From Acholoe squamosa (lineage: Eukaryota > Annelida > Polychaeta > Phyllodocida > Polynoidae): 64,000 nucleotides of DNA. The position numbers were made by a program, and so were the translations under genes. The stretch spans positions 17,856,395 through 17,920,394 of the forward strand of contig OX439049.1 in assembly GCA_949317995.1 (NCBI GenBank), read 5' to 3'. The notes under the pieces are model-generated. The model worked only from the letters and a program-made list of their open reading frames with translations, did no database searches and was not told the DNA's origin. Below, in pieces: positions 366 to 59,736 of this stretch; the first letter of the stretch is position 1, and every line of letters begins with the position of its first letter.

Positions 366-869
366 GTGAGTGAGTAATAGATGTTTAACGCCATTTCGAC
401 AGCTAAGGTCATATTCATGGCGAGAACGACATTACACAATTTCACAGAGGAATGTGTCGGTGCCCGCACATATGTGCACCACACACATCTGAGGGGATAG
501 GAAAGACGAGATATAGACCCTTTTAAGTGGGCTAAGGAGGCCCGGATGGGGTATGTAGACAGGTATGTGAGCACATGGGCAAACAGAATGAAGGCCCTTT
601 TAACTTTATAAATTATCTATTCTCTTTTATGATCTGAACACAGAAAACTCCAATTGAGATTGAGTTTTATGGCAACATTCATTATTTGGGAGTGGTCATT
701 ATTTATCAACAGGGGGGGTGGTGGGTTTTTGCACGGATGCGCAAAAATCTTTTACACCCCCCCCCCTCGACGGCAGTCAAAATTTTTTGCGCCCCCCGCG
801 CCGGAGGCGCGGAGAGTTTTCGCGCTTCTATAGATCAAAGAGGTTTGTAGTGGTCAGTGAAAACGTCTC

Positions 870-940
870 TGGAGACACCGGGATTCGAACCCGGGTCTCT
901 CGCTTGCAAGTCGAGCGCTCTACCACTGAGCTACATCCCC
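870..940 (-). tRNA. tRNA-Ala(TGC)-like gene inside LTR of element 1 (first copy)
   Basis: The minus strand folds as a full cloverleaf. The acceptor is GGGGATG against TGTCTCC with discriminator A, the D arm is GCTC/GAGC, the anticodon loop is CTTGCAA (anticodon TGC) and the T arm is CCGGG/CCCGG around TTCGAAT. Acceptor pair 3-70 is G-U, the classic alanine identity element. The A box (TAGCTCAGTGG) and B box (GGTTCGAATCC) match consensus, and TTTT follows 6 bases after the 3' end as a possible Pol III terminator. The weak last anticodon-stem pair (A-G) means it may not be a working translation tRNA. It lies in a transposon LTR, so it is better read as element-borne. Confidence 0.8.
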
Positions 941-1288
941 TGGCCTGACATACCCTGTCAGCAACACGGCCCCACTGACATTTCCACTTTCCAACTACCC
1001 TGGATCGGTATGGTATACATAGGGGGAGTGACACAACCAAGTGAACAGTCCCTCTGAAGGCTCTGCGCACCCGACGGGGGAACGAACCCCTACACTCCTC
1101 CCAACCAGCTTCAACCGTATCCCGCCAGAACCGGTCCTCCAGTCCAGTCTGAACGGTACCAGTACTGAGTCACACACAGCCCATCTGTTTCCAAGTCCCT
1201 CAGCACTAGCAAGTTGAAGCGCTTGTCTATACCATACCAGCCCAGGTACCGAGCTCTCTAAAGGTCCCCCATGCGAGGCAGGACCACT

Positions 1289-1302
1289 CGGTGTCTCCAC
1301 CA
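1289..1302 (-). promoter_or_regulatory. Primer-binding site of element 1, complementary to its own LTR tRNA
   Basis: The minus strand reads TGGTGGAGACACCG one base after the LTR end (LTR begins at 1304). The LTR-encoded tRNA ends CGGTGTCTCCA. With the post-transcriptional CCA its 3' end is perfectly complementary to all 14 bases. The match fails at the next base, then one further base agrees. Confidence 0.8.
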
Positions 1303-1327
1303 CTGTAGTGGTCAGTGAAAACGTCTC

Positions 1328-1398
1328 TGGAGACACCGGGATTCGAACCCGGGTCTCTCGCTTGCAAGTCGAGCGCTCTACCACTGAGCTACATCCCC
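1328..1398 (-). tRNA. tRNA-Ala(TGC)-like gene inside LTR of element 1 (second copy)
   Basis: This repeats the tRNA of the other LTR 458 bp away. The cloverleaf, TGC anticodon, A and B boxes and downstream TTTT are unchanged. The LTR differences fall outside the tRNA body. Confidence 0.8.
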
Positions 1399-1707
1399 TG
1401 GCCTGACATACCCTGTCACCAACATGGCCCCACTGACATTTCCACCTTCCAACTACCCTGGATCGGTATGGTATACATAGGGGGAGTGACACAACCAAGT
1501 GAACAGTCCCTCTGAAGGCTCTGCGCACCCGACGGGGGAACGAACCCCTACAGGTTTTTTGCTAAAAAGAGGGTGATTTTTTTTAGCCCCCCCTCAAGAG
1601 GGGTCAAATTTTTTTTAGCCCCCCCTCGGGAGGGGTCTGAAAATTTTACATCCCCCCCTCAAACCCACCACCCCCCCCCCCTCTGTTGATAAATAATGAC
1701 CACTCCC

Positions 1708-2930: not shown

Positions 2931-3090
2931 GAGGAACGGTAACATGAACAGGAGCCACCCTGAAAAACGGCCCCCTGATGGTAAGCCCCAGGAAAATAGG
3001 CCCCCTGAGAGTAAGCCCCCAAGAATTTAGGCCCCCTGATAACAATGCCCATTTACCTATGGTTAACCTATATTAAATTCCAGTTTACCA

Positions 3091-3302
3091 AACATCCGAT
3101 CCACCTAACATTCGATCCACCTAACATCCGGTCCACCTAACATCCGATCCACCTAACATCCAGTCCACCTAACATCCGATCCACCTAACATCCGATCCAC
3201 CTAACATCCGGACCACCTAACATCCAGTCCACCTAACATCCGATCCACCTAACATCCAGTCCACCTAACATCCAGTCCATGTAACATCCGAACCACCTAA
3301 AC
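3091..3302 (+). repeat. 16-bp satellite array, short arm
   Basis: The unit is CCACCTAACATCCGAT with substitutions, repeated about 13 times. It is the reverse complement of the unit of the array at 5764-6876. Confidence 0.93.
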
Positions 3303-4019
3303 CTAGAGGGATGTTGACTTCCTTTACTTTTTGGCTGGGGTAGTCAGATGCAAACACTGCTGCTGGCAACAGGGTAGCCTTAGTATTATAATGGGCCCAA
3401 TGGGGGGCTGAGGGTATAAACCCCAATGTGAAGTTTGCAGCCTGTCAGATATACCTTAGTAGCAGGGGAGTTGATAAATCTACTTTTCTTTGAGTACCAC
3501 ATTAAACTATGCATTTGGGCCCAAAAACATGGAAAAATAAAGCCCAAATTGAGGCTTCCAGAATCCTTGTAAAAATTCATAATGGAATCATGAATGTGGT
3601 TAGGAATATTCATTTACGGCATATAGAGATGACCAGAAACCATAATGTTGCAGTCAAAAGTGTTTATATCAAGATTCTGGGTGTTTCAGTGCCGATATTT
3701 GTATATCAGCCGTGCATTATAAGAGCATCAATGCACTAGTGCTTTTTTAGGATTTTTGCTATATACATTTTCAAGGTCAAGTTAGACATTGAAATGGCTG
3801 GCGGATATGCATAGTCAATCTTGCCATATTGTCCATGGTAAAACCATTTCAATCGTATAGAGAATCGCACCCAGGCTGCTGTGGCAATAGGCAGGATCAC
3901 TGCTCCATGCTGAGGGGTACTAGAAACCAATGTGAATGTAAATATAACTAAACCGTCTGCCATACCTCTGGCTTTGCACACATATTTTCCATAGAATCCA
4001 AGCTTGCCATGTTAAATCA

Positions 4020-5763: not shown

Positions 5764-6930
5764 GTTATGTTAGGTGGTCCGGATGTTAGGTGGATCGGAT
5801 GTTAGGTGGATCCGATGTTAGGTGGACTGGATGTTAGGATGATCGGATGTTAGGTGGATCTGATGTTAGGTGGATCGGTTGTTAGGTGGATCTGATGTTA
5901 GGTGGACTGGATGTTAGGTGACTGGATGTTAGGATGATCGGATGTTAGGTGGATCGGATGTTAGGTGAAGTGGATGTTAGGTGATTGGATGTTAGGATGA
6001 TCGGATGTTAGGATGATCGGATGTTAGGTGGATCGGATGTTAGGTGGATCGGATGTTAGGTGGATCGGATGTTAGGTAGATCAGATGTTAGGTGGATTGG
6101 ATGTAAGGTAGACTGGATGTTAGGTTGATCGGATGTTAGGTAGATCGGATTTTAGGTTGATCCGATGTTAGGTGGATCGGATGTTAGGTGGATCGGATGT
6201 TAGGTGGATCGGATGTTAGGTGGATCGGATGTTAGGTGGATCGGATGTAAGGTAGACTGGATGTTAGGTAGATCGGATGTTAGGTGGATCGGATGTTAGG
6301 TGAAGTGGATGTTAGGTGATTGGATGTTAGGATGATCGGATGTTAGGATGATCGGATGTTAGGATGATTGGATGTTAGGTGGATCGGATGTTAGGTGGAT
6401 CGGATGTTAGGTAGATCAGATGTTAGGTGGATCGGATATTAGGTTGATCGGATGTTAGGTTGATCGGATGTTAGGTAGATCGGATGTTAGGTTGATCGGA
6501 TGTTAGGTGGATCAGATGTTAGGTAGATCGGATGTTAGGTGGATCGGATGTTAGGTGGATCGGATGTTAGGTAGACCGGATGTTAGGTAGATCGGATGTT
6601 AAGTGGATCGGATGTTAGGTGGATCGGATGTTAGGTAGATCAGATGTTAGGTAGATCGGATGTTAGGTGGATCGGATGTTAGGTGGATCTGATGTTAGGT
6701 AGATTGGATGTTAGGTAGATCGGATGTTAGGTGGACTGGATGTTAGGTGGATCAGATGTTAGGTGGATCGGATGTTAGGTGGATCAGATGTTAGGTGGAT
6801 CGGATGTTAGGTGGATCGGATGTTAGGTAGATCGGATGTTAGGTGGACTGGATGTTAGGTGGACTGGATGTTAGGTTGACGTCATGTTAGTTTGACGTCA
6901 TTTCAGGTTGATGTCATGTCAGGTGATGGA
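5764..6930 (-). repeat. 16-bp satellite array, long arm (about 70 copies)
   Basis: GATCGGATGTTAGGTG units run with few interruptions to about 6876. They then drift into three TTGACGTCATGTTAGT-like units by 6925. Variant units (GGACTGGATGTTAGGT, GATGATCGGATGTTAG) recur in blocks, as expected from unequal exchange of multi-unit segments. Confidence 0.95.
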
Positions 6931-11201: not shown

Positions 11202-48753
<37,552 letters not shown>

Positions 48754-52227: not shown

Positions 52228-52251
52228 AATAGAGGTTGGCGGAAAAAGTCC

Positions 52252-52323
52252 TGGAGAAACTGGGAGTCGAACCTGGGACCCTCCAAACTGCAGGCGGAAG
52301 CTCTACCGCTGAGCTACTTCCCC
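52252..52323 (-). tRNA. tRNA-like gene (GCA anticodon) in LTR of element 2, first copy
   Basis: The acceptor GGGGAAG pairs fully with TTTCTCC, the discriminator is A, the D arm is GCTC/GAGC, the anticodon loop CTGCAGT gives GCA, and the B box is GGTTCGACTCC. Pair 3-70 is G-U. TTTTT follows 4 bases after the 3' end. The anticodon stem has one or two poor pairs. Confidence 0.7.
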
Positions 52324-52675
52324 GTCTGACGTTCTCTGCCTTCCATCTACACCTGGATCGGTATGACACAAATAGGGGCAGCTACCACCAGGTGCCAGGT
52401 GGCTAGGCTGGAACACCCGGAACGGGGCAGCTGGCTTTGTATGGCAGAGCTGGCCCCTACACTCCTCCCTACCAGATTCAACCTAGGGCTCGGAACCAGA
52501 CACCCAGGACTAGTACTGAGTCACCTTCAGTGTAGCCAACTCCTGTTCCCAGGAATCTCTGAGGGTGCCACCTGTTTCCAAGTCCACCAGTACTTAGCAG
52601 ATTGAATCGCATTTGTGTCATACCGGCCCAGGTACCGAGTTCGCGTAGTCCCCACTCTCACAGGTCAGGACCACT

Positions 52676-52689
52676 CGGTTTCTCCACCA
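52676..52689 (-). promoter_or_regulatory. Primer-binding site of element 2, matching its own LTR tRNA
   Basis: The minus strand reads TGGTGGAGAAACCG one base from the LTR. The tRNA in the first LTR ends GTTTCTCCA; with CCA, 12 bases pair without a gap. Where this site has A, element 1 has C, and the tRNAs differ correspondingly. Confidence 0.75.
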
Positions 52690-52714
52690 GTGTAGAGGTC
52701 GGCGGAAAACGTCC

Positions 52715-52786
52715 TGAAGCAACTGGGAGTCGAACCCGGGACCCTCCAACCTGCAGGCGGAAGCTCTACCGCTGAGCTACTTCCCC
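52715..52786 (-). tRNA. tRNA-like gene (GCA anticodon) in LTR of element 2, second copy
   Basis: This is the same gene with a damaged acceptor (TTGCTTC against GGGGAAG leaves a mismatch), anticodon loop CTGCAGG and downstream TTTT. It is probably decayed by point mutation. Confidence 0.65.
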
Positions 52787-52950
52787 GTCTGACATTCTCT
52801 GCCTTCCATCTACACCTGGATCGGTATGACACACATAGGGGCTGCTACCACCAGGTGCCAGGTGGCTAGGCTGGAACACCCGGAACGGGGCAGCTGGCTT
52901 TGTATGGCAGAGCTGGCCCCTACATTATGTTATGACTTGTTTAAGGTATT

Positions 52951-55150: not shown

Positions 55151-58728
<3,578 letters not shown>

Positions 58729-59512
58729 AATCCCACTGTGCACATCTCATCACCCCCAGCACCACCCTGCCCTGTTCACCCCAATCCCACTGTGCACATC
58801 TCATCACCCTCAGCACCACCCTGCCCTGTTCACCCGAATCCCACTGTGCACATCTCATCACCCCCAGCACCACCCTGCCCTGTTCATCCCAATCCCACTG
58901 TGCACATCTCATCACCCTCAGCACCACCCTGCCCTGTTCACCCGAATCCCACTGTGCACATCTCATCACCCCCAGCACCACCCTGCCCTGTTCATCCCAA
59001 TCCCACTGTGCACATCTCATCACCCTCAGCACCACCCTGCCCTGTTCACCCCAATCCCACTGTGCACATCTCATCACCCTCAGCACCACCCTGCCCTGTT
59101 CACCCGAATCCCACTGTGCACATCTCATCACCCTCAGCACCACCCTGCCCTGTTCACCCGAATCCCACTGTGCACATCTCATCACCCCCAGCACCACCCT
59201 GCCCTGTTCACTCCAATCCCACTGTGCACATCTCAGCACCGTCCTGCCCTGTTCACTCCAATCCCACTGTGCACATCTCATCACCCTCAGCACCACCCTG
59301 CCCTGTTCACCCCAATCCCACTGTGCACATCTCATCACCCTCAGCACCACCCTGCCCTGTTCACCCCAATCCCACTGTGCACATCTCATCACCCTCAGCA
59401 CCACCCTGCCCTGTTCACCACAATCCCACTGTGCACATCTCTTCACCCTCAGCACCACCCTGCCCTGTTCATCCTAAACCCACTGTGCAAATCTCATCAC
59501 CCTCAGAAGTAC
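58729..59512. repeat. 54-bp minisatellite, about 14 copies
   Basis: The unit begins CCCACTGTGCACATCTCATC and ends CTGTTCACCCCAAT. Because 54 is divisible by three, several frames on both strands stay open for hundreds of codons, which explains the long overlapping open frames. One unit near 59225-59250 is internally shortened. Confidence 0.95.
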
Positions 59513-59736
59513 ATCTTTAGCAATCTCAACATCCTTGTCCTGGATGGTAATTCACAAAACCAAAGAGAGTCAAAATTCATGAAGAGAGTGAAAATTACAA
59601 TTCTCACCAAGATTTACTCTCCCTTCGAGTCTAAACATACATGCCCGAGAACACTTCCTTCAAATTCTCTCTTTGGAAAAGCTGTTATGATTTATAAAAC
59701 TCAACTTAGGATGTCAAATTTATTATCTGTACCCTT

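Follow-up and report, generated by a model that had tools for sequence, protein, structure and literature searches.

The usual view is that LTR retrotransposons and retroviruses prime reverse transcription with a borrowed host tRNA, a few lineages using an end of their own RNA instead; in Tf1-type elements the 5′ terminus of the element RNA, and not a tRNA, serves as primer. Engineered retroviral vectors have been rescued by a tRNA-like primer fitted to a mutated primer site, an arrangement that is man-made. To our knowledge, no self-encoded primer has been described for Cassandra, a plant TRIM with a Pol III-type gene inside its LTR. Self-priming is named in the accessible text of the work on the biv-TRIM elements of bivalves (PMC6934838). 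The closest described relatives of the element reported here are the Helenus elements, TRIMs with tRNA-derived sequence in their LTRs that occur in fungi, plants and animals, pteriomorph bivalves included; animal Helenus elements have 4-bp duplications, Gypsy-like primer sites and signs of a Gypsy helper (Kojima, 2024, PMC10886601, accessible text). The same text weighed self-priming and rejected it, since the primer site was not found to be complementary to the tRNA-like sequence of the LTR (PMC10886601).

In a stretch of 64,000 nucleotides of Acholoe squamosa DNA (the window), we identified a 707-bp LTR element at positions 846-1552, whose sense strand is the minus strand (the original prediction gave no strand). 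Like the Helenus elements of the accessible description, it is shorter than 1000 bp, encodes no proteins for its own mobility and has an LTR tRNA with boxes A and B, a primer site, a polypurine tract and a 4-bp duplication, and it is a Helenus by definition. It differs from them in that the 3′ end of its LTR tRNA, extended by CCA, is complementary to its own primer site, a property reported as absent in that text. Like Cassandra, it is a miniature element whose LTR contains a Pol III-type gene, a tRNA gene here and 5S rRNA there (PMC10886601, accessible text), and it shares with the biv-TRIM of molluscs the miniature LTR build, although no canonical primer site is identified in the accessible account of the latter (PMC6934838). 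As in Tf1-type elements, the primer would come from the element and not from a host tRNA, and, as in the engineered vectors, a template and a matching tRNA-like primer would be supplied as a pair. The earlier statement that this arrangement lacks an established description held in part: LTR elements with an LTR tRNA were described in 2024 as Helenus, and the self-matching primer site is the sole property that is new relative to the accessible text of that paper. Among the titles listed by a literature search that covered few subscription papers, there was no later work on TRIMp3/Helenus and none on retrotransposons with their own primer tRNA.

The window element is a complete TRIM. Its LTRs are two direct repeats of 249 nt, 99% identical, separated by an internal region of 209 bp; from the repeat, its ends and the order of parts, the 5′ LTR (TGTAGGGG...CACTACA) lies at 1304-1552 and the 3′ LTR at 846-1094, both on the minus strand. 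A tRNA-Ala(TGC) gene within each LTR (1328-1398 in the 5′ LTR and 870-940 in the 3′ LTR, minus strand) was detected by ARAGORN and by Rfam (RF00005, 68.5 bits, E 8.1e-13 in each), and a Pol III terminator-like TTTT begins 7 nt past the tRNA (1318-1321 and 860-863, minus strand). After a 1-nt spacer (1303, minus strand) follows the primer-binding site TGGTGGAGACACCG (1289-1302 on the minus strand, read 1302-1289), which is the reverse complement of the LTR tRNA end ..CGGTGTCTCCA plus CCA at 14 of 14 bases; base 15 of the site is mismatched to the tRNA (A against G). The polypurine tract GGTTGGGAGGAG occupies 1095-1106 (minus strand), and the same 12 bases precede the next LTR in every tabulated unit. 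The insertion is flanked by the 4-bp target-site duplication GGTT (842-845, partner 1553-1556), and among 46 LTR-internal-LTR units, a count that takes in tandem and nested ones, 26 have exact 4-bp duplications. The longest frame (177 codons from GTG, 995-1528, minus strand) spans the LTR tRNA and gave no match in a Pfam search. At least 45 near-full-length places of at least 98% identity, the window's own among them, were found in the genome (1.48 Gb, 63 contigs) with the best 40 of 3471 candidates scored. The structural part of the original prediction, namely a miniature, TRIM-like LTR element with a tRNA-Ala-shaped gene and TTTT in each 249-bp LTR and a 14-base primer site complementary to the CCA-extended tRNA end, is in agreement with all these features.

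Across the family, 127 of 129 LTR 3′ parts had a TTTT no more than 14 nt past the tRNA, starting 5 to 8 nt after it in 126 of the 129 (up to 20 of these parts had been preselected by a TTTTC pattern), and GGTTC was present in 116 of the 129. The combination of a tRNA gene and a TTTT 5 to 8 nt after it suggests that the LTR tRNA gene may be transcribed by Pol III. One pair in the anticodon stem of the Ala-type tRNA, beside the anticodon loop, is non-standard, and the minimum-energy folds of five LTR tRNAs showed no cloverleaf and a stability that is not unusual. Selection on the part of the LTR that holds the tRNA was not apparent from mutation counts, either in a first set of units (events, p 0.59) or in a second one that included Ser-type units (sites, p 0.50; events, p 0.15). 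The acceptor 5′ strand also varies between types (GGGGATG/TGTCTCC, GGGGAAG/TTTCTCC), so that the pairing of the stem is preserved while the primer site follows the tRNA end.

We searched the genome with a pattern composed of the LTR end, TGG, nine free bases and CGAGTGGTCCTG, with the reversed pattern as a control, and obtained 551 exact matches against 0 for the control, by which a chance match between site and tRNA was rejected. Among the 551 matches 100 were listed, from which 30 loci were excised and 40 further regions taken in list order, skipping places already covered, with L117 and L118 picked for their unusual sites; copies L002-L008 were excluded from the counts because they duplicate L009-L015, and identical copies were counted once for fit and concordance. 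The 3′ half of a tRNA was seen by eye directly upstream of the site in all 30 excised loci, and ARAGORN called a tRNA gene, with several anticodons, in 26 of them.

The primer sites differ between copies, and they do so together with the LTR tRNA. The Ala-type end ..GGTGTCTCCA pairs with the site GAGACACC, and most Ser-, Cys- and Leu-type LTR tRNAs have the end ..GGTTTCTCCA and the site GAGAAACC. Considering the Ala and Ser types, 80 of 81 non-identical copies with intact ends (L009-L118) were concordant (Fisher p 2e-21, computed on related copies, which share descent and are therefore not 81 independent events). The fit of a site to its own tRNA was 14/14 at 66 of 100 sites, the parser having missed 6 further sites; a second parsing of 119 sites gave 14/14 in 78, 13/14 in 27 and 12 or fewer in 14, with a mean fit of 13.23 against a permuted mean of 12.61 (maximum 12.83 in 10,000 permutations), and base 10 of the site tracked the LTR tRNA in 114 of the 119. 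Some of the low fits are parser misregistrations (L052, L102, L111).

The lone discordant copy among the 81, L102, is a mosaic of the Ala and Ser types. Outside the 81, a Ser-type LTR (L148, G000:C12:2886024-2886149) has the tRNA end ..GGTGTCTCCA beside the site GAGAAACC (copy read TGGTGGAGAAACCC) and is discordant, with a fit of 12/14, probably through a point mutation in the tRNA end. In L182 (G000:C1:104895600-104896600), an Ala-type site, GAGACACCGGG, stands beside the tRNA end ..GGCATCTCCA, with a fit of 11/14; priming in trans or an older tRNA are possible reasons for this mismatch.

Phe-type LTR tRNAs (..TTTCCCTA; end ..GGTTTCCCTA) are accompanied by correspondingly changed primer sites. 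The site is exactly TGGTAGGGAAACC in five of seven copies, found with a pattern that barred G at site base 5, so that this base is no free evidence in those seven; the other two are L162, which differs at base 13, and L160 (TGGTATAGGGAAACCG), with a 2-nt insertion near the start. Six Phe-type copies free of that condition (cluster 3, with L118 picked) have TGGTAGGGAAACCG, with the site exactly TGGTAGGGAAACC, in five cases and TGGTTGGGAAATCG in one, and fit their own, partly decayed tRNAs at 8 to 14 bases, with some parser misregister. Nine of the 20 stretches from the search that gave the first seven copies have no primer site after the LTR and resemble 3′ or solo LTRs beside unrelated DNA. 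Two tRNA-end types beyond Ala, Ser and Phe rest on single copies: the end ..GGTATCTCCA with the site GAGATACC fits at 18/18 in L127, a rearranged locus, and at 12/14 in L055; the LTR end ..GGTGTTTCCA (L173 and L176, with no adjoining site) predicts TGGTGGAAACACCG, which is the site of L052, where the copy's own decayed tRNA gives 12/14. The tracking of the LTR tRNA by the primer site across copies and families, a check that the original prediction had proposed, is borne out by the 80 of 81 concordant copies and by the change in the Phe type.

From these sequence comparisons, we consider it probable that the LTR-encoded, CCA-matured tRNA primes the reverse transcription of its own element, and that it is possibly shared between families. 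On this reading, a Ty3/gypsy element, the presumed helper, would move this Helenus-type TRIM in trans. Pol III would read the LTR tRNA gene through boxes A and B and TTTT; the transcript would be trimmed, provided with CCA and methylated at A58 in the tRNA position numbering. We infer the addition of CCA because it is absent from the gene, yet its complement TGG opens the primer site. The mature tRNA would then anneal to its complementary site, a single base inward from the 5′ LTR in the longer RNA, and would be extended by the helper's reverse transcriptase; packaging of the LTR tRNA would also be needed, and related families may share primers. Finally, the plus strand would copy the 3′ end of the primer and may in this way rewrite the site from the tRNA, keeping both in step, a process of which the extended sites described below may be footprints. 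We also lean, on balance, to a wider proposal, that a whole group of LTR elements captured tRNA genes as dedicated primers, in which a CCA-matured, A58-modified tRNA would prime its own and sister RNAs and rewrite their sites, co-evolving apart from host tRNAs.

If true, an element-borne tRNA gene that serves as primer would be a third priming route, the LTR tRNA would gain a use beyond promoting transcription, and mobile elements may use as primers many of the tRNAs whose genes are predicted in genomes of this kind. The complementarity itself contradicts the published negative statement on the described relatives. The prediction of a self-supplied primer is supported by a TRIM with an LTR tRNA, a fitting site and tracking across copies; its claim that priming would be independent of the host tRNA supply is overstated, because a tRNA-primed element still requires host Pol III, tRNA-processing and tRNA-modifying enzymes and the helper's reverse transcriptase.

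The first alternative is that a host tRNA primes and that the LTR tRNA does no more than promote Pol III transcription, its fit to the site reflecting common descent from a host tRNA-Ala. The LTR tRNA end of L182, GGCATCTCCA, which we take to resemble that of an ordinary animal tRNA-Ala, is in line with such descent, and bivalve Helenus families were matched to host tRNAs (PMC10886601, accessible text). Against it, bases specific to the LTR tRNA are mirrored in the sites of three or more tRNA-end types, and the host would need a separate tRNA for each type. We searched the genome for host genes with GGTTCRANNCCCGGTGTCTCCA, the T-arm and acceptor of the Ala type, where the next base is not G, and none of the 20 hits is a host tRNA gene: 2 are junctions, 17 continue with the element's U5, and the remaining one, L141, is a truncated element copy. 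This search covers only the Ala-type end with this T-stem and a non-G follower. An ordinary element with a borrowed host primer is lowered in probability by the site tracking and by the Ala-type host search, and we consider host priming unlikely.

The extent of the match between site and tRNA bears on priming by the LTR tRNA in two ways. Most primer sites cease to fit after base 14 (in 551 the search pattern itself fixed CGAG at this point, and 54 have another base at position 15). Repeated copying of the tRNA should often yield an 18-nt fit and does not account for this stop, which counts against self-priming. A pattern with a base other than A at site base 15 gave 54 hits, 48 of them with G, the tRNA base, and the antisense LTR tRNA continues for at least 21 bases in 33 of the 54, for 17-20 in 6 and for 16 in 6, whereas in 9 it does not. 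We inspected 18 of the 54, all but L025 selected by their letters. The tRNA match reaches 18 bases in L025 and L180 (the last base of L025 could be internal) and 19 in L181, where a single base disagrees with the copy's own decayed tRNA; beyond the match the element sequence returns, directly in L025 and after a few unexplained bases in L180 and L181. According to the accessible text of one report, plus-strand strong-stop DNA stops after 18 primer bases, at m1A58 (PMC13191261), and for this reason the 18-19-nt sites look as if a modified tRNA had served to rewrite them. The site of L179 continues into antisense tRNA that lacks the T-loop, skipped from one CCGGGA repeat to the next, and then reaches the polypurine tract, as if the enzyme had jumped a hairpin.

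Other copies form junctions. At 7 of 10 loci read, the LTR end is joined to antisense CCA-tRNA and to the LTR upstream of the tRNA, the other three being rearranged; simple read-through of a free tRNA was dropped as their main explanation, since those seven extend into the LTR beyond the tRNA. We read the junctions as second transfers that probably failed because the plus-strand ends had paired with the tRNA stretch of a different LTR. At some loci, families seem to have primed one another, or recombined, in trans. The extended sites and inverted junctions could also arise through template switching between the primer site and the antisense tRNA, which have 11 nt in common; the junctions therefore need self-complementarity but do not by themselves show priming.

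This continuation past the tRNA 5′ end into the upstream LTR is what would be expected if the primer were the 3′ end of the element's long RNA, cut by RNase Z after the tRNA of the 3′ LTR, provided with CCA and priming itself or a sister RNA, and at C1:111154 the antisense copy continues even into antisense internal sequence. Two other loci point elsewhere. C3:60118 (L121/L131/L132, G000:C3:60117880-60119800) is a palindromic insertion with two U3 ends, in which a Ser-type LTR lies tail to tail with an Ala-type LTR without U5; its inverted part ends at the LTR terminus and the 4-bp duplication ATAG is present on both flanks. At C7:52438, the inverted part likewise ends at the LTR terminus (a reading without the left flank). 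Both are better explained by the annealing of two plus-strand strong-stop DNAs, and priming by the long RNA seems to us quite improbable.

A further alternative, very unlikely, is that families recombined, swapping LTR and site as a block, and that the covariation merely results from this with no functional coupling: only about 25 nt separate the site from the tRNA end, so that they co-segregate, L102 is a mosaic and the U3 of Ala- and Ser-type copies fall in a single 80% cluster, but block swapping accounts for the persistence of the fit and not for complementarity in each tRNA-end type, the non-encoded CCA included, and it leaves the 18-19-nt extended sites unaccounted for.

A 12.7-kb Ty3/gypsy element lies in the window at 12421-25097 (minus strand), with Pfam matches to a zinc knuckle, an aspartic protease, RVT_1, RNase H and an integrase. 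These gag-to-integrase domains are accompanied by about 4 kb of further frames past the integrase. Its LTRs, of 357 and 358 bp, have the ends TGTAGGGG..CACTACA or CACCACA, and it has a 1-nt spacer and the 4-bp duplication AAAC. It has LTR ends, spacer and duplication length in common with the small element, but the primer site, TGGTGCTGTGACCAG, differs. This element is kin of a possible helper; a helper with the same primer site as the small element was not recovered, the sole gypsy element examined carrying TGGTGCTGTGACCAG. The repeats at 12421-12778 and 24741-25097 were also considered as a third small element, which was rejected, as they are the LTRs of the gypsy element.

A second element of the same build as the first, more decayed and with tRNA-Cys(GCA)-like genes, was found at about 52230-52924 (minus strand), with no clean target duplication seen. 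Its 5′ LTR (52691-52924) carries a tRNA-Cys(GCA)-like gene at 52715-52786 with a decayed 3′ end (ARAGORN, Rfam and repeat), and its 3′ LTR (52230-52461), with one end eroded, carries another at 52252-52323 (ARAGORN and repeat). The primer site TGGTGGAGAAACCG (52676-52689, minus strand) matches the tRNA end of the 3′ LTR at 13/14 and the decayed one of the 5′ LTR at 11/14.

Arrays of the small elements were also observed. L015 and L040 are tandem LTR-internal arrays with common LTRs, with 4 and 6 tRNA genes in a row, and L102 consists, in order, of a Ser-type LTR with the 3′ half of its tRNA deleted, an Ala-type internal region, an Ala-type LTR and a Ser-type primer site with its internal region. 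Tandem arrays are mentioned for zebrafish Helenus (PMC10886601, accessible text). The window also contains long minisatellite-like arrays with 16-nt and 54-nt units at 3026-3329, about 5856-6876 and 58593-59614, and two of the 16-nt arrays, near 3.1 and 6.2 kb, repeat one another in inverted orientation.
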